DNA from: Eggerthellales bacterium
GTDB taxonomy: Bacteria > Actinomycetota > Coriobacteriia > Coriobacteriales > Eggerthellaceae
Assembly (NCBI GenBank): GCA_029219345.1
Contig: JAQXTF010000037.1
Location: forward strand, 1 to 42,147
Direction of reading: 5' to 3'
DNA: 42,147 nucleotides
Shown here: positions 7,974 to 17,474 of the stretch, piece by piece
Layout: each line of letters begins with the position of its first letter
How positions within the stretch are numbered: the first letter of the stretch is position 1
Translations under genes and position numbers: made by a program
The notes under the pieces: generated by a model
Told to the model about the DNA's origin: nothing
Seen by the model: the letters and a program-made list of their open reading frames with translations, nothing else
The model's database searches: none

Positions 7974-8810
7974 ATGAAGGTTGTGCTCTCTAAGTTCGCC
8001 GGTGCCTGCTACGGCGTTCAGCGCGCTTTGGATTTAGCGGAGACCGCCATTATGGAAGGGGAGCCTGCGGTAACGTTGGGCCCTATCATCCATAACCCCA
8101 AGGTGGTAAATCACCTTGCTGAGCAGGGAATTCGTTCCGTTGAAAGCTTGGACGAGGCCGCAAACCAGATTGTCATCGTGCGAAGCCACGGCGTGACCCC
8201 CGCCGTTATGGAAGACATTGAGGCCCGTGGTCTTGAGGTCATTGACGCAACCTGCCCCCATGTTGCTCGCGCGCAGAAAGCCGCCGCCGATCTTGCCAAG
8301 CAAGGTTGCTTGGTGGTGGTTGTGGGCGAAGAGGGCCATCCTGAGGTTGAAGGCCTGACCGCCTATGCCCGCAAAGAAGGGGCTCGCGCCATTGTAGCCG
8401 CTACGCCCCAGGATTTGCCCGATGGCCTCTACGAGCCCATTGGTGTGGTGGTGCAAACCACGCAGACCCGCGAAGCTTTGGATGCCGTGGTGGTCGCTTT
8501 GGAGGAAATGGGCTTAAAACCCCAGGTGAGCAACACTATTTGCTTCGCAACACGCCAGCGTCAAGACGCTGCGGCCGCTTTGGCGGGCACCGTTGACGCC
8601 ATGATCATCATCGGCGGCAAAAACTCTTCCAACACCACGCGCTTGTTTGAGATTTGTCAGTCGGTTGCTCCTGCGGCGTATCATATCGAAGACATCGAGG
8701 ATATTGACCCCACTTGGTTCGCCGGATGCGAAACCGTGGGCGTTTCTGCGGGGGCTTCTACCCCTGAAAACCAGATTAAAGAGCTGATTACCTATCTGGA
8801 GAACTTGTGA
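7974..8810 (+). CDS. ispH: 4-hydroxy-3-methylbut-2-enyl diphosphate reductase
   Basis: This 278-residue iron-sulfur enzyme catalyses the last step of the methylerythritol phosphate route, making IPP and DMAPP. The three cluster cysteines are Cys12 in GACYGVQRAL, the Cys of DATCPHVARAQ, and the Cys of NTICFATRQRQ. The conserved VVQTTQT and the KNSSNTTRLFEI segment are also present. Its length matches the compact family members of Gram-positive bacteria. It overlaps the next gene by four bases (GTGA). Confidence 0.93.
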   Translation: MKVVLSKFAGACYGVQRALDLAETAIMEGEPAVTLGPIIHNPKVVNHLAEQGIRSVESLDEAANQIVIVRSHGVTPAVMEDIEARGLEVIDATCPHVARAQKAAADLAKQGCLVVVVGEEGHPEVEGLTAYARKEGARAIVAATPQDLPDGLYEPIGVVVQTTQTREALDAVVVALEEMGLKPQVSNTICFATRQRQDAAAALAGTVDAMIIIGGKNSSNTTRLFEICQSVAPAAYHIEDIEDIDPTWFAGCETVGVSAGASTPENQIKELITYLENL

Positions 8811-10192
8811 GTACTTACCCAACACGCGATATTGAGCAACAGAGCAAGGGAGCTTTGCCGGCGGCGGTAATTGCTTCCGTACGGGAAGATTCGCCCGCTT
8901 ATGACGCCGGTTTTGAGCCTGGTTGCAAAATCACGGCAGTTAACGGCCAGCCCCTGCGAGACATCATTGATTGGCGCTGGCAGACTTCTGATGACGAGAT
9001 CACTCTTTCCTACATCGACCTTGATGGGGAAGAGGGCATTATTGACCTAGAGCGATTCCCCGGCGAGGATTGGGGCTTTGAATTTGAGGGCGTCGTGTTT
9101 GACAAGATCAAGCTCTGTCGCAACGCCTGCACCTTCTGCTTCATGCGCCAGCTGCCTGCGGGTTTGCGCCCGTCTCTTTCTTTGCGCGACGATGATTATC
9201 GCCTGAGCTTTTTGTCGGGCACCTTCGTTACCATGACCAACGTATCCCCCGAAGATGAAGCGCGCATTGTTGACCAGCGCATTTCGCCTCTTCGCGTGTC
9301 TTTGCATGCGGTTTCGCCCGACGTGCGCCAAGAGCTTATTGGCAAGCATGCCCAGCATGGCCTTGATGTTATTGACCGTTTGCTGGCACAGGGTATTGAG
9401 ATGCATGTTCAAATTGTACTGGTGCCCAATGTCAACGATGGGGAAGAGCTAAAGCGAACCCTGGAATGGGCTTACGCACGCCCGGGCGTCGTGGAAATTG
9501 GCATTGTGCCCCTGGGCTTCACCCGCCATCAGTCAATTTTCAACAGAAGCTTCAACAAGCCCAGCCAGGCAAAAGAGGTTCTTGACCTTATTGCACCCTT
9601 TCAGAAAAAGGCTAAAAGAGAACGTGGCAGCGTATGGGTATACGCTGCAGATGAGTTTTATCGCAACGCATACACCGACCACCTGTTGGAGCATTTGCCG
9701 CGCACTTCCTTCTATGGCGACTTTGGCATGTTCGAGGATGGCGTGGGCATCATCCGCTCGGTAGTGGACGATTGGGAAGAATGCGTGGACTCGGGCTTGA
9801 CGGATAGATGCGCCCAGCATCTGCGCGAACGAGATGCTCGCGCTGTGCTTCTGGTGGGCTATGCCATGATGCCGTTTTTCGGTCAATTAGTGGAGGCCAG
9901 CGTGCTGAAAGATCTGTTGCTGGTGCTGCCGGTTGAGAATGGCTTTTTCAGCGGCAATGTGGATGTAACGGGCTTGCTTACTGCGGCGGACGTGGCTCAG
10001 GCGGTTTCTGACCCCAATCTGGATCTGTTCCCTAACGACCAGGTGATTATTCCCAACGTGGTGCTTAACGATGACGGCGTCATGCTGGATGATGGCACCT
10101 TGGAGGACGTGTTCCGCGAGACGGGTGTGGAGGTTATCCCTGTTTCGTGCAATCCTTCTGGTTTTCTTGCCGAAATCATGGAGCTTGTCTAG
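8807..10192 (+). CDS. DUF512 family protein with PDZ and radical SAM-like domains
   Basis: This 461-residue protein starts with a PDZ-like domain (about residues 12-80: AVIASVREDSPAYDAGFEPGCKITAVNGQPL). A radical SAM-like segment follows with cysteines at 104, 108 and 111 (CRNACTFC), a spacing slightly different from the classical CX3CX2C context. The motif RLSFLSGTFVTMTN and RISPLRVSLHAVSPDVR complete the barrel start. The C-terminal half is the DUF512 region. The reaction is unknown. It starts with GTG 8807 overlapping the ispH stop. A location just before der is conserved in many Gram-positive genomes, which suggests but does not prove a link to ribosome or RNA biology. Confidence 0.85.
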   Translation: MSTYPTRDIEQQSKGALPAAVIASVREDSPAYDAGFEPGCKITAVNGQPLRDIIDWRWQTSDDEITLSYIDLDGEEGIIDLERFPGEDWGFEFEGVVFDKIKLCRNACTFCFMRQLPAGLRPSLSLRDDDYRLSFLSGTFVTMTNVSPEDEARIVDQRISPLRVSLHAVSPDVRQELIGKHAQHGLDVIDRLLAQGIEMHVQIVLVPNVNDGEELKRTLEWAYARPGVVEIGIVPLGFTRHQSIFNRSFNKPSQAKEVLDLIAPFQKKAKRERGSVWVYAADEFYRNAYTDHLLEHLPRTSFYGDFGMFEDGVGIIRSVVDDWEECVDSGLTDRCAQHLRERDARAVLLVGYAMMPFFGQLVEASVLKDLLLVLPVENGFFSGNVDVTGLLTAADVAQAVSDPNLDLFPNDQVIIPNVVLNDDGVMLDDGTLEDVFRETGVEVIPVSCNPSGFLAEIMELV

Positions 10193-10240
10193 GTAAAGCC
10201 CTTCTTTATCTGCGATAATAAATCTTCATTATGGATTACT

Positions 10241-10276
10241 AGCGCAATTGTGCGCTTTGGGCCTTGAGCTCATATC
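10241..10276 (+). promoter_or_regulatory. Possible promoter/hairpin upstream of der
   Basis: A perfect six-base stem AGCGCA-ATTG-TGCGCT occupies 10241-10256. It overlaps a -35-like TTGTGC (10248-10253), which lies 17 bases before a weak -10-like CATATC (10271-10276). The hairpin lacks a T tract, so it is not a convincing terminator. The 101-base gap before der is the largest in this gene block, which fits a separate promoter. Confidence 0.3.
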
Positions 10277-10293
10277 GTAGTAGGGAGGTACCT

Positions 10294-11613
10294 ATGCCTT
10301 TGCCGATTATTGCAGTTGTGGGACGCCCCAATGTGGGTAAGTCCACCTTCGTGAACCGCATTGCCCAGGCTGACGAGGCAATCGTTCACGAGATGCGCGG
10401 TGTTACCCGCGACCGCTCCTACCATATTGCCGACTGGAACGGCGTTTCCTTCAAGCTCATTGATACCGGCGGTATTGAGATGGGTGACGATGACAAGTTC
10501 CAGGGTCATATTCGCTCTCAGGCTCTTGAGGCAACCCGTGAGGCAGATCTTATTCTGTTCCTGGTTGACGGCAAGACGGGTATTATGGCCGATGACGAGG
10601 CCGTTGCCCGCATTCTTCAGCGCACCGAAAAGCCCGTTATGCTGCTGGTGAACAAGATGGACAACCCGGGTAAGGTTGACGCCATGTGGGAGTTCTACGC
10701 CTTGGGTCTGGGCGACCCGTGGCCCATTTCCGCCACCCACGGCAACAACACCGGCGACCTGCTGGACGCCGTGGTTGACAAGCTGCGCGAGCTGGGCCTG
10801 GACAAAAACGATGATCCCGATCCCGACAGCATGAACATCGCCATCATTGGCCGACCTAACGCTGGCAAGTCCTCTCTGACCAACAAGCTCACCAATAACG
10901 AGCGCTCCATTGTTTCCGACGTGGCAGGCACCACTCGCGATGCTATCGATACTCTGGTGGAGCACGATGGCAAGCTGTACACCATCGTTGATACCGCTGG
11001 TCTGCGCAAGAAGAGCCTCATTGACGAAGACGTGGAATACTACGGCTTCGTGCGCGCCATGCGCGCTATCGACCGCGCTAATGTGGCCGTGCTGGTGGTT
11101 GACTCCGAGATTGGCCTTACTAATGAGGACCAGCGCGTGGCGGGCTTTGCCGCCGACCGCGGTTGCGCCATGGTCATCGTGCTGAATAAGTGGGACCTGG
11201 TGGATGGTCCTGAGGCTAAGCAGGAAATCCGCGAGAAGATTGAAGACCGTATGGTGTTTGTGGGCTATGCTCCGGTTGTTTCCGCCGTTGCCAAGACCGG
11301 CAAGAATGTGGATCACATCTGGAACGCCATCGACCGCGCTTATGCCAACTACAGCCAAACCATTCCCACCAGCCAGCTGAACAATTGGCTGGGCGAGATT
11401 CGTGAGACCGGTCATTCCATCTCCAAGGGCCGCAAAATTCTGCGCATGAAGTACGTCACTCAAACCGATACCTGTCCTCCGCGCTTCACGTTCTTCGTGA
11501 ACCATCCTGACCTGATCAACGACTCCTTCCAGCGCTTCCTTGAGAACCGTCTGCGCAAGTCTTTCGATCTGACCGGCACTCCCGTTTACTTCAAGTTCAA
11601 GAAGAAAGACTAG
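10294..11613 (+). CDS. der: Ribosome biogenesis GTPase Der (double Era-like)
   Basis: This 439-residue protein has two tandem Era-like GTPase domains and a C-terminal KH-like domain, which defines Der/EngA, needed for 50S subunit assembly. G1 motifs are GRPNVGKST (10-18) and, near residue 189, GRPNAGKSS. G3 motifs are DTGG and DTAG, and G4 motifs are NKMD and NKWD. The end FKFKKKD is typical. Start ATG 10294 follows GGGAGGTA; an upstream in-frame start at 10264 lacks such a site and adds ten non-conserved residues. plsY begins four bases after the stop. Confidence 0.95.
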   Translation: MPLPIIAVVGRPNVGKSTFVNRIAQADEAIVHEMRGVTRDRSYHIADWNGVSFKLIDTGGIEMGDDDKFQGHIRSQALEATREADLILFLVDGKTGIMADDEAVARILQRTEKPVMLLVNKMDNPGKVDAMWEFYALGLGDPWPISATHGNNTGDLLDAVVDKLRELGLDKNDDPDPDSMNIAIIGRPNAGKSSLTNKLTNNERSIVSDVAGTTRDAIDTLVEHDGKLYTIVDTAGLRKKSLIDEDVEYYGFVRAMRAIDRANVAVLVVDSEIGLTNEDQRVAGFAADRGCAMVIVLNKWDLVDGPEAKQEIREKIEDRMVFVGYAPVVSAVAKTGKNVDHIWNAIDRAYANYSQTIPTSQLNNWLGEIRETGHSISKGRKILRMKYVTQTDTCPPRFTFFVNHPDLINDSFQRFLENRLRKSFDLTGTPVYFKFKKKD

Positions 11614-11617
11614 TGCC

Positions 11618-12277
11618 ATGATTTCCCTTGCTGCATTGGCCATTGTGGTGGAGTCGTTCCTTTTGGGCTCCATTCCTTGGGGCGTTGTCATCTCTCACCT
11701 GGTGAAACATGATGACGTTCGCACCCATGGTAGCGGCAACATTGGCACTACCAACATGATTCGCGCTTATGGCAAAAAGCTGGGCTATATCTGCTTTGTG
11801 CTGGATTTCGCCAAGGCGGCTCTTGCCTGCGCATTGGTGTATCCCATCTGCGACTTTGCTCTAGCCACCGGCTCGGTTGACCCTGTTTTCGTTGAGTCGC
11901 GCATTTTGCTTATCACCGCTGGTATGTTCGCGATTTTGGGCCATATTTTCAGCCCTTGGCTGGGCTTCAAGGGCGGCAAGGGCGTTGCCTGCGGTGGCGG
12001 CGTTTCCCTGGTTGCCTTCGGGTGGCCCCAGTTCCTCATTTTGCTGGCCGTGTTCATCGTGTTTGTAGTTGCCACTAAGGCCGTGTCTGCCGGCTCTATT
12101 GCGGCGGCTGCCGTCTTTCCCTTCCTGGGCGTTTGGGTCTATTGGGGCAATACGGTGGGTATTCTGATGAGCATCGCCATTGGTGCGGTGGTCATTTGGT
12201 CCCATCGTTCCAATATCGAGCGTTTGGCCCACGGCACCGAGAATAAAATTGGCAGCAAAAAGACGGCGGATAAGTAG
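11618..12277 (+). CDS. plsY: Acyl-phosphate:glycerol-3-phosphate acyltransferase
   Basis: This 219-residue membrane protein has about five hydrophobic helices. It carries the PlsY motifs LGSIPWGVV, GSGNIGTTNMIRAYGKKLG and GFKGGKGVACGGG. It transfers the acyl group of acyl-phosphate (made by PlsX, encoded at 26024) to glycerol 3-phosphate. It is placed directly upstream of gpsA, which supplies glycerol 3-phosphate, so the pair forms a functional unit. Confidence 0.92.
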   Translation: MISLAALAIVVESFLLGSIPWGVVISHLVKHDDVRTHGSGNIGTTNMIRAYGKKLGYICFVLDFAKAALACALVYPICDFALATGSVDPVFVESRILLITAGMFAILGHIFSPWLGFKGGKGVACGGGVSLVAFGWPQFLILLAVFIVFVVATKAVSAGSIAAAAVFPFLGVWVYWGNTVGILMSIAIGAVVIWSHRSNIERLAHGTENKIGSKKTADK

Positions 12278-12283
12278 GCGTCT

Positions 12284-13279
12284 ATGAAGGTTGCAGTTAT
12301 TGGTGCTGGCTCTTGGGGTACCGCACTGGCTCAGTGCGTTGCGCGCAACGGCCATGAGGTATGCCTGTGGGCGCGCAAGCAGTCGGTGGCGGATGGCATC
12401 AACCAGCAGCATGCCAACCCACGCTATCTGAGCGAGGTAACCCTTTCGGAAGGCGTTACTGCCACAACTTCTTATGAAGAGGCTTTTGCGGGTGCTTCCG
12501 CTGCGGTTATCGTGACCCCTTCGGCAACTTATCGCGAAACGGCCCAGATCATTGCGCCGTTTGTGGGTGAAGACCTTCCTTTGGTTCTGTGCTCCAAAGG
12601 CGTTGAGGCGGGAACCGGCATGGTGGGCGTTGAGATTTTCGCCCAGGTGCTGGGAAATGAGAGTCGCCTGGCTGCTCTGTCGGGCCCCAATCATGCCGAA
12701 GAAGTGGTGCTGGGCATTCCTGCCGCAACGGTTATCGCAAGTTCATTGCTGGAAACGGCCCAGTTCTTCCAGAGCATTTTTGCATCTGCGTCATTCCGCA
12801 CCTATGTGAGCCACGATGTTTTAGGCGTTGAGCTGTGCGCTGCGTTCAAAAACGTCATTGCCATTGCTACGGGCGTTTCTTACGGCTATGGTTTTGGCGA
12901 CAACACTGCTGCTGCCCTGCAAACCCGCGGTTTGGCGGAAATGAGCCGCCTGGTAACCGCATGCGGCGGCGAAGCCATGACTTGCCTGGGCTTGGCGGGC
13001 ACCGGTGACCTGATTGCCACCTGCATGTCGCGCCACTCCCGTAACCGCAAGCTGGGCGAAATGCTTGCTCAGGGAAAGACCCTGGATGACTTCACGGCAG
13101 AAACCCATATGATCGCGGAAGGTTCTGTTGCCTGTGAGACTTTGAGCGAGCTGGCAGACCGCATTGGCGTTGACCTGCCCATTTGCCGGGCTATTCGAGA
13201 CCTCATGCGCGGCGATATGTCCATTGAGGCCATTGTGGCCGCTCTGGCTGACAGGCCTTTGAAACCCGAATTCTACTAA
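12284..13279 (+). CDS. gpsA: NAD(P)H-dependent glycerol-3-phosphate dehydrogenase
   Basis: This 331-residue enzyme reduces dihydroxyacetone phosphate to sn-glycerol 3-phosphate for phospholipid synthesis. The N-terminal Rossmann motif is GAGSWGTALA. The conserved LCSKGVEAGTG, LSGPNHAEEV, catalytic-Lys region ELCAAFKNVIAIATGVSYGYGFGDNT and the GLAGTGDLIATCMSRHSRNRKLG segment are all present. It begins seven bases after plsY and is the last + strand gene before a convergent minus-strand gene. Confidence 0.93.
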   Translation: MKVAVIGAGSWGTALAQCVARNGHEVCLWARKQSVADGINQQHANPRYLSEVTLSEGVTATTSYEEAFAGASAAVIVTPSATYRETAQIIAPFVGEDLPLVLCSKGVEAGTGMVGVEIFAQVLGNESRLAALSGPNHAEEVVLGIPAATVIASSLLETAQFFQSIFASASFRTYVSHDVLGVELCAAFKNVIAIATGVSYGYGFGDNTAAALQTRGLAEMSRLVTACGGEAMTCLGLAGTGDLIATCMSRHSRNRKLGEMLAQGKTLDDFTAETHMIAEGSVACETLSELADRIGVDLPICRAIRDLMRGDMSIEAIVAALADRPLKPEFY

Positions 13280-13291
13280 TCCGCCAAGCCG

Positions 13292-13316
13292 TGACAAGGT
13301 GCCGGGGGATTTGTCA
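13292..13316. other. Inverted repeat between convergent genes
   Basis: TGACAA and TTGTCA are separated by 13 mostly GC-rich bases in the 45-base gap between gpsA and the convergent alkyltransferase-like gene. It could act as a weak bidirectional stop, but there is no clear T tract on either side. Confidence 0.25.
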
Positions 13317-13324
13317 TGCGTGGA

Positions 13325-13825
13325 TTATTCCAGGCCCAGAGCGTGGCGTTCTGCTTTGAGCAAGGCTGCGTTGAAAACGTTGGCTTTGGTGGCGTTTAAC
13401 TTGCGGCCCTCAGCTGCGGAAATGCGATGGGTGGGAATAACCACCGCAAGGGGGCTGCGCTTTGCCGCGGCGCCTACTACGCGATATGATGATGCATCGC
13501 CAAGGCGTGCAGCGATGTCTGAGGTAGAGGCGCATTGCCCGTAGGGAATCTTCATGATTTCGGCCCAAACCTTCTTCTGAAAGTCGGTTCCATCAGGGTT
13601 AAGGGGCACGTCAAAAATCTGGCGCTTGCCAGCAAAATACTCCATGAGCTGGTTGGCCATAAGGTTGGTGAGCGGGTTTGGTTTGCGAGGGCCGCTTAGC
13701 TCAACTTCGCCAAATTTCACGCAAGTAACTGCAGAGTTGGTTGCCTGGATGGTCAAAAGGCCATAGGGGCTGCGGTACACAAAGTGCACCAGGCTGGCAT
13801 CAAAGCTTTTGCGGGAGTTTTGCAT
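13325..13825 (-). CDS. Alkyltransferase-like protein (MGMT/Ogt fold, active-site Cys replaced by Thr)
   Basis: This 166-residue homologue of O6-alkylguanine-DNA alkyltransferase has an N-terminal domain (1-80) and the DNA-binding domain. The latter carries FQKKVWAEIMKIPYGQ and SSYRVVGAAAKRSPLAVVIPTHRIS. The family active site is PCHRV, in which Cys accepts the alkyl group. Here the codon at 13432-13430 is ACC, so residue 132 is Thr. The Asn of the NP motif is Ser, and the GYxGG loop after the active site is lost. The putative Arg finger (Arg115) is kept. It therefore cannot act as a suicide alkyltransferase. It may bind alkylated DNA like Atl proteins, which usually carry Trp or Ala there. 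Start ATG 13825 follows AAAGGACA; an upstream frame to 13969 is non-homologous. It is convergent with gpsA and divergent from rpe. Confidence 0.8.
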   Translation of the reverse strand: MQNSRKSFDASLVHFVYRSPYGLLTIQATNSAVTCVKFGEVELSGPRKPNPLTNLMANQLMEYFAGKRQIFDVPLNPDGTDFQKKVWAEIMKIPYGQCASTSDIAARLGDASSYRVVGAAAKRSPLAVVIPTHRISAAEGRKLNATKANVFNAALLKAERHALGLE

Positions 13826-13852
13826 GGGTGTCCTTTCCCAAAGGGTGTTTTC

Positions 13853-13858
13853 ATTATA
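13853..13858 (-). promoter_or_regulatory. -10 element of the alkyltransferase-like gene
   Basis: A perfect TATAAT lies on the minus strand 28 bases before the start codon. No good -35 is visible at 16-18 bases spacing (CCGCCG at the expected place), so only the -10 is claimed. Confidence 0.4.
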
Positions 13859-13900
13859 GAACAAACGGCTATATTCGGCGGCAGCCGCCTTTGCATGCGT

Positions 13901-13906
13901 TACAAT
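13901..13906 (+). promoter_or_regulatory. -10-like element upstream of rpe
   Basis: TACAAT lies 36 bases before the rpe start in the divergent intergenic region. The -35 position has no recognisable match, so this is a tentative call. Confidence 0.3.
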
Positions 13907-13941
13907 GAGCAGGTAAATTTCGCAAAAAGCAAGGAGACCCC

Positions 13942-14634
13942 ATGTTCCAGGAACCCAAGATTGCCCCATCTATTCTTTCGGCTGACTTTATGAATCTTGA
14001 AAGCCAAATCAAGCTTATTGAAGATGCTGGTGCGGGTTATGTTCACGTGGATGTCATGGACGGTCATTTTGTGCCCAATCTGACCATTGGCGTGCCGGTG
14101 GTAAAGGGCCTGAAGAAGATTGCTCGCATCCCCCTGGATGTTCATCTGATGATCTCCAACCCTCTGGTTCAGCTGCCTTGGTATTTGGGCGCTGGTGCCG
14201 ATATGATTACCATGCATGTTGAGGCTTTCGATTCCGTGGAAGATATGCAATCCGCTATTAATCAGTGCCATGAGGCAGGCGTGAAGGCGGCCCTTTCGTT
14301 GAAGCCCAAGACCCCTGTCTCTGTCTTGGAGCCGGTAATCAAAGACCTGGATATGGTGCTCATCATGAGTGTGGAGCCTGGCTTCTCGGGCCAGTCTTAC
14401 ATCGAGGGTAGCGATCTGAAGGTTGCCCAGGTGGTGGACATGGCTAAGGCTGCTGGGGTGGCGCCCCTCATTGAGGTTGACGGCGGCATTGGTTTGAAGA
14501 CCATCGCTGGGGTTGCTAAGGCAGGTGCCGATGTGTTTGTGTGCGGTAATGCCGTGTATGCCCAGGAAGACCCTGCTCAGGCCCTGAAAGACATTGAGGA
14601 AGTTGCCCGCCAGGCCCAGGCTGACCTGCGGTAA
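13942..14634 (+). CDS. rpe: Ribulose-phosphate 3-epimerase
   Basis: This 230-residue TIM-barrel enzyme interconverts ribulose 5-phosphate and xylulose 5-phosphate. It opens with IAPSILSADFMNLESQI, followed by the metal-site motif YVHVDVMDGHFVPNLTIG (His35, Asp37). LDVHLMI, MSVEPGFSGQSYI and the second catalytic Asp in EVDGGIGLKT follow, and the phosphate-binding GADVFVCGNAVY closes the barrel. ATG 13942 follows AAGGAGA with good spacing. It starts the next + strand operon, with the cysteine desulfurase gene nine bases downstream. Confidence 0.95.
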   Translation: MFQEPKIAPSILSADFMNLESQIKLIEDAGAGYVHVDVMDGHFVPNLTIGVPVVKGLKKIARIPLDVHLMISNPLVQLPWYLGAGADMITMHVEAFDSVEDMQSAINQCHEAGVKAALSLKPKTPVSVLEPVIKDLDMVLIMSVEPGFSGQSYIEGSDLKVAQVVDMAKAAGVAPLIEVDGGIGLKTIAGVAKAGADVFVCGNAVYAQEDPAQALKDIEEVARQAQADLR

Positions 14635-14643
14635 TTTCGCATT

Positions 14644-15834
14644 ATGGCTGATTACGTATATCTTGATTACGCTGCCACGGCGCCTCTTTGCGAAGAGGCG
14701 GCGCAGGCCTTGCGCGGCTTTTTGGAGACCGGTGCCCTTCATCTTGAGGCCGGCGGCGGCAATGCCAATTCCCTTCATACACCTGGCAGGCGCGCCTTTG
14801 ACCTGATGGAAAAGGCTCGTAAAAGCATTGCCAAAGATTTGAACGCATCGCGCCCTGCGGAAATCATTTTCACGGCGGGGGCCACGGAAAGCGACAACAT
14901 GGCGCTTTTCGGCTTGACCCGGGGCGCCTTGGAACAGCGCCATAAGCAGGGAAAGCATAGTGCAGGCCATATCATTGTGTCGGCTGTTGAGCATGATGCT
15001 GTGCTGGAACCTGCTCGCAGACTGGAGCGGGAAGGGGTGGCTGTTACTGTTCTTCCCGTGAACAAAGGTGGCTTCGTGGAGCCTTTCCAGCTTGAGGCTG
15101 CATTCCGCGAGGATACGGTGCTAGTGTCTGTCATGATGGCCAATAGCGAGGTGGGTTCGGTGCAGCCAGTGCAGGAGTTGGCCGCCATTGCCCATAAGCA
15201 TGGTGCTCTCTTCCACACCGATGCTACCCAGGCTTTGGGAAAAATTCCTGTTGACCTGCAAAAACTGGGCGCTGATGCCGTATCGTTTTCGGGGCACAAG
15301 ATTGGCGCCCCCAAGGGCATTGGTCTGTTGTATCTGAAGGCACGTACGCCTTTTCAGCCGCAGCTTTTGGGCGGCGGCCAAGAGGAAGGGCGCCGCAGTG
15401 GCACGCAGAACGTGCCGGGCATGTGCGCGCTGGCGGCTGCATGTTGCGCTGCTGTGGAGATGCAGGCGGCCGAGGCGCAGCGTTTGACTGTCTTGCGGGA
15501 TTGGCTTTATGAACGTCTTGGCGCCATGAAGCGGGTTTCCCCTACGGTTCAAGTAGCTTCGGGAAACGGAGATTACCTTCCCAATATCGTTCATGTGCTG
15601 GTTTCGGGCATGGAAAGCGAAACCCTGATCATTCGTTTGGATTACGCTGGCTTTGGTGTTTCGGGCGGCTCTGCCTGCGCGTCTCATAGCTTGGAACCCA
15701 GCCATGTGCTTAAGGCCATGGGCGTTTCGGCTGACAAGGCGTATGGAGCCTTGCGCATATCTATGGGCCGCTACACCACACAAGAGCAGCTTGAGGCCTT
15801 TATTGCGGCGCTGCAAGATTGTATTCAGAAGTAA
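14644..15834 (+). CDS. Cysteine desulfurase, NifS/IscS type
   Basis: This 396-residue class V aminotransferase-fold enzyme takes sulfur from cysteine for Fe-S clusters or tRNA thiolation. The N-terminus has YLDYAATAPLCEEA, and GATESDNMAL forms part of the PLP pocket. FHTDATQALGKIPVD binds the PLP ring, and SFSGHKIGAPKGIGLLYL holds the PLP Lys (Lys219). RSGTQNVPG follows, and SGGSACASHSLEPSHVL carries the persulfide Cys near residue 345. No iscU or mnmA is adjacent, so its partner is not shown. It ends with TAA just eight bases before the PHP gene start. Confidence 0.9.
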   Translation: MADYVYLDYAATAPLCEEAAQALRGFLETGALHLEAGGGNANSLHTPGRRAFDLMEKARKSIAKDLNASRPAEIIFTAGATESDNMALFGLTRGALEQRHKQGKHSAGHIIVSAVEHDAVLEPARRLEREGVAVTVLPVNKGGFVEPFQLEAAFREDTVLVSVMMANSEVGSVQPVQELAAIAHKHGALFHTDATQALGKIPVDLQKLGADAVSFSGHKIGAPKGIGLLYLKARTPFQPQLLGGGQEEGRRSGTQNVPGMCALAAACCAAVEMQAAEAQRLTVLRDWLYERLGAMKRVSPTVQVASGNGDYLPNIVHVLVSGMESETLIIRLDYAGFGVSGGSACASHSLEPSHVLKAMGVSADKAYGALRISMGRYTTQEQLEAFIAALQDCIQK

Positions 15835-15842
15835 GGACTGCT

Positions 15843-16652
15843 GTGGAACTAGTCAATTGTCATTCCCATACGGTTTATTCGGGGCACGGTGAGGGCACCG
15901 TTGACCAGCTGGTGAGCGCTGCCCGCAAGGCGGGCATCTCAACTTTGGCGGTAACGGAGCACTATCCGCTTCCGGCAGAGCTTGATCCTCTGAAGGAAAA
16001 CGCCATCACCTGGGATTTGCTGCCCCAGTACTTGCTTGAACTTGCTCAGGCCCAAGAGGCTTACCGCGATATCGACGTGGTTACTGGTGCGGAATTCGAC
16101 TGGCTGGGAAAGTGCGAGACCCGCGACATCTCCGATGCATCTTTCGAGCCCTTTGCCTATTCGCTGCTGTCGGTGCACTTCTTAGATGGCTGGTGCTTCG
16201 ATGACCCCGCCCTTATGAGCCGCTGGGACGAGCTGGGCTACGATGCCGTGTGGCGTCGCTATGTGGAGCTGTGGATTGAGGCCGTTACGTCAAACTGGCC
16301 TTGCACCGCCATGGCTCACCCCGACTTGGCCAAGAAATTTGGCTATTACCCCAGCTTCGACCTGGGTAAAGTCTATTCTGAGATGGTTGATGCCATTGCA
16401 TCCACCGAGCGCATCATTGAGTTGAACGCCGCTGGTGCGTATTACGGCTGCAAGGAGATGTATCCGGCCCCCGAGCTTTTGCGCATGTTTTGTCGTGCGG
16501 GCATCCCTTGTTCGGTGGGTACCGATTCCCATGCCCCTGAGCAGGTTGACAGGGGCTTGAAAGACGCTTACCGCGCTCTGTTTGAGGCGGGCTATCGCTG
16601 CATTACCGTTCTCACCGCAACGGGCGATCGCCGTTGCATCCCCTTTGATTAG
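15843..16652 (+). CDS. PHP-domain phosphoesterase (histidinol-phosphatase-like)
   Basis: This 269-residue protein has metal-binding motifs of the PHP superfamily. NCHSHTVYSGHGEG comes first, then TEHYPLP, the Glu of VVTGAEFDW, SVHFLDGW, TAMAHPDLAKKFG, and GTDSHAPEQV near the end. The pattern fits HisJ-type histidinol phosphatases, but no his gene is nearby, so another phosphate monoester is possible. Start GTG 15843 follows AAGGA at 15833-15837. It is preceded by the desulfurase and followed nine bases later by the Nif3-like gene. Confidence 0.8.
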   Translation: MELVNCHSHTVYSGHGEGTVDQLVSAARKAGISTLAVTEHYPLPAELDPLKENAITWDLLPQYLLELAQAQEAYRDIDVVTGAEFDWLGKCETRDISDASFEPFAYSLLSVHFLDGWCFDDPALMSRWDELGYDAVWRRYVELWIEAVTSNWPCTAMAHPDLAKKFGYYPSFDLGKVYSEMVDAIASTERIIELNAAGAYYGCKEMYPAPELLRMFCRAGIPCSVGTDSHAPEQVDRGLKDAYRALFEAGYRCITVLTATGDRRCIPFD

Positions 16653-16661
16653 GAGCCCTCG

Positions 16662-17474
16662 ATGATGATGAACATGACCGTTGGTGAGTTGGAAGAGATG
16701 CTCTTGAGCAAATACCCTGCTCAAGATGCTGAGCCATGGGATCGTACTGGTCTTTTGGTGGGCAATCCTGACGCTTTGGTGGAAGGCGTCGCCGTTGCTC
16801 TTGACCCTACTGTTCCTGCGGTTCTTGCCGCTAAAAAGGCTGGCTGCAACGTGCTGCTTACCCATCATCCCGCTTTTCTGGAAGCCCCGGAAAGCTTTTT
16901 GCCGGGGCCATCTGTGGCCGCTCAACCAGGTGCTTTGGTGGTCGCCGCTTTGCAAAATGATGTAGCGCTCATCAATTTCCATACCGCTTTGGACCTGAAT
17001 GAAGAGGGACTTATGGCCATGCCTTCCGCTTTGGGTCTGGAATACGTGCGTACCGTGCAGCCCTTGAGCGGAGCTTCTGCCACGGGTCGCGGATACGGCG
17101 CGCTGTGCACCCTTCCCGCTGATAGGGAGTTGGCGTCGGTGGGGGATGTGGCCGCGTGGTGCAAGAGCGCTTTTGGCACCAGCCCGCGCATTTGGGGAGA
17201 CCCCTGCGCTACCGTCTGCCACGTGGTTACCGCCCAAGGAAGCGCTGGATGCATTGCCGCCGATGCTTTGGCGGCGGGTGCCGATTGCCTGGTGTGCGGC
17301 GAATTCAAATATCACGACGCGTTGGCATATTCTCAGGCGGGAATGGCCATTATCGAATTGGGGCATGACAAATCTGAGCTGCCCCTCGCTCGCGTCTTGT
17401 ATAAAGCTGTTAAGCGCTTAGGCGTTGAAAAGGTTGTAGAATTTGAGCAAACGCAAAATTGGGTTTGCCTGTAA
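16662..17474 (+). CDS. Nif3-like dinuclear metal centre protein (DUF34)
   Basis: This 270-residue member of the Nif3/YqfO/YbgI family binds a di-metal site. The visible ligands are LLTHHPAF, NFHTALDLNEEG, and the C-terminal CGEFKYHDALAYSQAGMAIIELGHDKSELP. No full PII-like insertion is apparent at this length. Family members have been annotated as type 2 GTP cyclohydrolase I, but the general function is unsettled. AGGAG at 16651-16655 supports the first of several clustered ATG codons (16662; also 16665, 16668 and 16674). Together with the zinc-ribbon gene downstream it forms a pair widely conserved in Actinobacteria. Confidence 0.85.
   Translation: MMMNMTVGELEEMLLSKYPAQDAEPWDRTGLLVGNPDALVEGVAVALDPTVPAVLAAKKAGCNVLLTHHPAFLEAPESFLPGPSVAAQPGALVVAALQNDVALINFHTALDLNEEGLMAMPSALGLEYVRTVQPLSGASATGRGYGALCTLPADRELASVGDVAAWCKSAFGTSPRIWGDPCATVCHVVTAQGSAGCIAADALAAGADCLVCGEFKYHDALAYSQAGMAIIELGHDKSELPLARVLYKAVKRLGVEKVVEFEQTQNWVCL

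Follow-up and report, generated by a model that had tools for sequence, protein, structure and literature searches.

The Eggerthellaceae contain a clade of full-length Ogt proteins that lack the suicide cysteine and whose genes are under selective constraint. One member is encoded in the window, by which we mean the whole stretch of 42,147 nucleotides that was analyzed. Our best explanation, read from the sequence and in our judgment as probably right as wrong, is that this protein is a transferase-dead Ogt that has been kept as a non-catalytic, Arg-finger-bearing binder of DNA or of DNA lesions. Vertical inheritance of the family-wide Cys-less clade forms part of the same proposal, and here, too, the chances appear evenly balanced.

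A two-domain Ogt with threonine at the cysteine position

The open reading frame at 13325-13825 on the minus strand is intact and encodes a two-domain Ogt of 166 amino acids (ORF list, translation and Pfam). It matches PF01035 (E 1.2e-18, 67.1 bits) and PF02870 (E 9.8e-7, 29.7 bits) above the curated cut-offs, and also TIGR00589 ogt (61.6 bits; cut-off 46.4). Having both Pfam domains, it is by its sequence a homologue of the AGT/Ogt superfamily. The AlphaFold model of the protein (mean pLDDT 92.3) includes both domains, and structures of M. tuberculosis OGT are its best match in the structure comparison (TM 0.80). Atl1 matches the model over one domain only. The features of the gene are as follows.

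13325-13825, minus strand: Cys-less full-length Ogt, 166 aa (ORF and translation, PF02870 and PF01035, AlphaFold model)
13598-13789, minus strand: N-terminal ribonuclease-like domain, PF02870, residues about 13-76 (Pfam)
13346-13585, minus strand: C-terminal DNA-binding/active-site domain, PF01035, residues 81-160 (Pfam)
13523-13525, minus strand: Thr101 at the position of the base-flipping Tyr, human Y114 (orthologue alignment, gene tree)
13481-13483, minus strand: Arg115, the Arg finger, human R128 (orthologue conservation)
13454-13456, minus strand: Ser124 at the Asn hinge, human N137 (orthologue alignment)
13430-13432, minus strand: Thr132, codon ACC, at the position of the alkyl-acceptor Cys, human C145 (sequence, phmmer, orthologue alignment)
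13424-13429, minus strand: His133-Arg134 of the PxHR motif, human H146 and R147 (orthologue conservation)
13376-13414, minus strand: region of the former GY-x-GG active-site loop, residues 138-150 (alignment, model confidence)
13349-13351, minus strand: Glu159, human E172 of the Glu-His-Cys relay (orthologue conservation)

An earlier note on this DNA had read the codon ACC at 13432-13430 as a threonine at the site of the suicide cysteine. This reading is exact, as are the ORF and its coordinates: Thr132 lies in the motif VVIPTHRIS and is aligned by phmmer to the catalytic cysteine of M. tuberculosis OGT. The alignment also bears out the loss of the GYxGG loop, where the window protein has AEGRKLNATKANV / ISAAEGRKLNATKANV, and the change of Asn to Ser at residue 124. 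The confidence of the model is lowest at residues 138-150, the first residues aside, and the protein ends 7 residues past Glu159. Absent from the earlier list of changes is the loss of the tyrosine at residue 101, whose human equivalent Y114 aids base flipping (PMC10779285).

Like the Ogt/AGT proteins of the MGMT family (M. tuberculosis OGT, 4bhb/4wx9; E. coli Ogt), the window protein has two domains, the same fold, a helix-turn-helix with an Arg finger, the P-x-H-R motif and the relay Glu, so that the Arg finger, His, Arg and Glu are all retained. Unlike them, it lacks the suicide cysteine, the base-flipping tyrosine and the GY-x-GG loop. Since these three elements are missing, the protein should be incapable of the known transfer chemistry, and the absence of the cysteine in itself would preclude the known SN2 transfer. 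That transferase activity has been lost, as the earlier note proposed, is very probable from these residues.

Most orthologues in the family lack the cysteine

We searched the genome of the window (G000; 1.94 Mb, 92% complete), the sole representative of its genus in the sample, together with 137 further genomes of the family. Orthologues were retrieved with their flanks and could be read in 117 family genomes. The cysteine is kept in 44 of these and missing in 73 (62%), which rules out a unique mutation or a sequencing error. Its place is taken by nine different residues, namely Thr (19 genomes), Asp (16, spanning several genera), Ala (16), Ser (10), Val (6), Ile (2), Leu (2), Gly (1) and Glu (1); Trp is found in none of the 117 genomes. 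Threonine had been called unusual at this site, yet it is the commonest of the 73 replacements, and the outcome in which relatives carry Cys and the threonine is unique did not materialize. Thr132 itself is not conserved among relatives. The identity of the acceptor residue changes at least 25 times on the gene tree, which rules out threonine as a conserved special residue.

The same variability bears on a reading that we consider very improbable, in which the protein is still an active enzyme with another acceptor, either the replacing residue (Asp, Thr or Ser) or a water bound by His and Glu, which takes or hydrolyzes the alkyl group. The relay His and Glu are nearly invariant, and 45 of the 73 replacements are Asp, Thr or Ser. 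However, Ala, Val, Ile, Leu and Gly account for 27/73, so that no nucleophile is common to the group, and the loop and the tyrosine that would place the substrate are missing.

Among the 64 proteins that lack both Cys and Tyr, the PxHR Arg, the Glu (human E172) and the Pro preceding the acceptor site are present in all, and the Arg finger and the His in 63 each. The Asn hinge, which is Ser in the window protein, is Asn in 40 of the 64. The GY-x-GG loop is lost in this group, and Ala often replaces Pro140. At position 122 (human R135), Arg or Lys occurs in 48/67 Cys-less proteins versus 1/41 of the Cys group. The N-terminal domain is as well conserved in Cys-less proteins as in Cys orthologues; the loop is less conserved in the former.

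The alignment supports the earlier view that the DNA-binding helix and the Arg finger are retained, and from these we infer that the protein would still bind DNA. Recognition of lesions may also have been lost, given that the tyrosine and several pocket residues are gone. An alternative that we regard as unlikely, if worth weighing, goes further and sees a DNA binder blind to lesions, which would act as a structural, cooperative or regulatory minor-groove protein. It would fit the erosion of the lesion pocket (Tyr, Cys, Pro140 and loop) alongside retained DNA-binding residues and the enrichment of a basic residue. Both AGT and ATL assemble on DNA in cooperative clusters, and DNA binding by M. 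tuberculosis OGT is weakened in variants of its N-terminal domain (PMC10779285), a domain that is fully conserved here. On the other hand, such a protein would have no need of an Arg finger, which occupies the space vacated by a flipped base, and the contacts of the AGT helix-turn-helix are not sequence-specific (PMC10779285).

The most divergent orthologues are those at L143 (G053) and L144 (G008), which have Glu or Asp at the Cys position and Pro at the Tyr position; the motif of L144 is PDYR. Outside the family, residues were read for the best matches in the phylum sample and for the order-level matches that were retrieved, and 17/17 of the best phylum matches read are canonical PCHR. A scan of the genome contigs returned one distant Cys-bearing relative. 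Our literature search found no paper combining Eggerthella with methylated-DNA.

The gene sits at an old locus next to rpe

The retrieved neighborhood contains rpe in 102/110 family orthologues of the main set and often der, plsY, gpsA and nifS as well, and we therefore regard it as one old locus. Canonical rpe-linked Ogt proteins of the family (e.g., L041, L060, L066) are orthologous to the window protein and share its locus and fold, and differ from it in that they keep Cys, Tyr and the GY loop and are mostly the sole full-length Ogt of their genome. Cys-less genes are divergent from rpe in 57 of the 61 cases that have rpe; for Cys genes, 25 are divergent and 16 co-directional. The surroundings of the gene in the window are as follows.

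12284-13279, plus strand: gpsA, convergent neighbor (ORF list, neighborhood reading)
13831-13836, minus strand: AAAGGA ribosome-binding site, 5 nt from the ATG (by eye)
13853-13858, minus strand: TATAAT, a -10-like hexamer (by eye)
13942-14634, plus strand: rpe, divergent neighbor and synteny anchor (ORF list, neighborhood reading)

The claim that the gene has its own promoter and ribosome-binding site stands in part: AAAGGA and TATAAT are there by eye, but the -35 region has no consensus match and the TATAAT site is missing from the output of the promoter scan. A perfect 6-bp inverted repeat with a 1-nt spacer (GGCGGC-T-GCCGCC, 13877-13889) lies upstream of the TATAAT and overlaps the expected -35 position; it could be an operator or could have arisen by chance. 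At 8807-17474 the window holds a conserved run comprising a DUF512-like radical SAM protein, der, plsY, gpsA, (ogt), rpe and nifS-like, PHP-like and Nif3-like genes, named by eye except for the synteny anchors. Linkage to uvr genes, which had been suggested as a check, is not seen among the neighbors of ogt, these being der, plsY, gpsA, rpe and nifS; G000 encodes uvrA on another contig.

Loss of the cysteine and a second Ogt

On a gene tree that was built without the active-site columns, and whose deep branches are weakly supported, the loss of Tyr maps as one change and the loss of Cys as five. Tyr is lost throughout the clade of the window protein, and a test on the tree did not reject a common clade of Cys-less, Tyr-less proteins (p 0.448). 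Two kinds of intermediates occur: L035, L042 and L116 have kept Cys and lost Tyr and loop, and L068 and L129 have kept Tyr with Ser in place of Cys.

Of the Cys-less genomes, 54/73 carry a second canonical full-length Ogt, versus 8/44 of the Cys genomes; its absence is uncertain in several family genomes that are incomplete. The Fisher p of 4e-9 for this association ignores kinship, with few independent events on the tree, and a tree-aware test had too few independent pairs. The eight Cys genomes with a second Ogt include the three intermediates that have kept Cys (L035, L042 and L116). Of the 19 Cys-less genomes without a second canonical Ogt, 18 have another PF01035 protein; those that are readable carry PCHR and are mostly single-domain.

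G000 has its own second Ogt, a canonical PCHR and GYAGG protein at G000:C30, which rules out that this genome is without an active AGT. Adjoining it is a single-domain Atl/COG3695-like protein (G000:C30:12237-12497, minus strand, in L001) with the motif PYHRV, and hence Tyr at the Cys position; the single-domain relatives read in other family genomes have PCHRV instead. Tandem pairs of canonical full-length Ogt genes occur at G006:C2, G131:C1, G147:C1 and G149:C1.

The Cys-less genes are constrained

We estimated dN/dS for pairs of genes by the simple Nei-Gojobori method, the values being partly near saturation. Across 21 close pairs of Cys-less genes dN/dS ranges from 0.08 to 0.50, with a median of 0.24, and dN<dS holds at p<=0.021 for all 21. 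The median is 0.135 for pairs of Cys orthologues, and rpe of the same genomes gives 0.083 and 0.089. The Cys-less ogt is thus under constraint, which is weaker than that on Cys orthologues or on rpe, and the range and median of its dN/dS argue against plain decay. A frameshift or pseudogene is ruled out for the window ORF, in agreement with the earlier note, and its relatives are intact and constrained.

These values have to be weighed against a slowly eroding remnant, a reading that we find unlikely, in which function was lost once a second Ogt was present and a weak constraint acts, for example, against toxic binding or misfolding. Consistent with erosion, dN/dS exceeds that of Cys orthologues about 1.8-fold and that of rpe 3-fold, the active site has degraded stepwise (Tyr, loop, Cys), the Cys position varies freely, and in 13 genomes with a second Ogt no rpe-linked copy is readable in the data set. 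Against it, full-length intact ORFs are found in many genera, dN/dS is well below 1 in 21/21 pairs, and the Arg finger (63/64) and clade-specific residues are conserved.

Discussion

For a transferase-dead Ogt retained as a binder, we propose the following course. Comparison of the orthologues shows that the ancestral rpe-adjacent gene lost the base-flipping tyrosine and the active-site loop, and that its suicide cysteine gave way to residues of small or medium size (Thr, Asp, Ala, Ser, Val and others). This loss was probably tolerated because most such genomes own another Cys-bearing alkyltransferase, as their co-occurrence suggests. Going by conservation, the protein would still bind DNA through its minor-groove helix-turn-helix and insert the Arg finger. 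Finally, and this is a guess, it might hold alkylated or odd bases in the manner of ATLs, and so flag them for nucleotide excision repair or hand them to the second Ogt. A hand-off is conceivable because G000 has uvrA, albeit unlinked.

ATLs (S. pombe Atl1, E. coli YbaZ/eAtl, V. parahaemolyticus 2kif) resemble the window protein in their Cys-less PxHR motif, in the Arg finger and, presumably, in the lack of transfer. They differ in being single-domain, in keeping Tyr and in mostly having Trp, whereas the window protein has kept the N-terminal domain, has lost Tyr and belongs to a group with a variable acceptor residue, here Thr. It should therefore not be filed as an ATL, a membership at odds with the published ATL features, even if its mode of action should prove similar. 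ATLs are further characterized by loss of the Asn hinge, a capping loop and a C-terminal extension loop, and by binding to O6-alkylguanine DNA and to UvrA. By its description, T. thermophilus TTHA1564 is comparable to the window protein: it is an AGT homologue annotated as ATL and is reported to interact with an excision-repair protein (cited in PMC7216122).

In this family active Ogt grades, by way of the intermediates, into wholly Cys-less proteins, a natural series in which the order of losses and the retained function are directly testable. Automatic annotation would label such proteins methylated-DNA--cysteine methyltransferases, and most orthologues in the family would be unable to carry out that reaction by the known mechanism. 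We tentatively suggest, at slightly less than an even chance, that they represent a third kind within the alkyltransferase family beside AGT and ATL: full-length, Cys-less and Tyr-less Ogts that originated within one bacterial family, probably once an extra Ogt had been gained. In these proteins the former catalytic position could change freely, whereas the Arg finger and the PxHR frame would be retained for a role on DNA other than catalysis.
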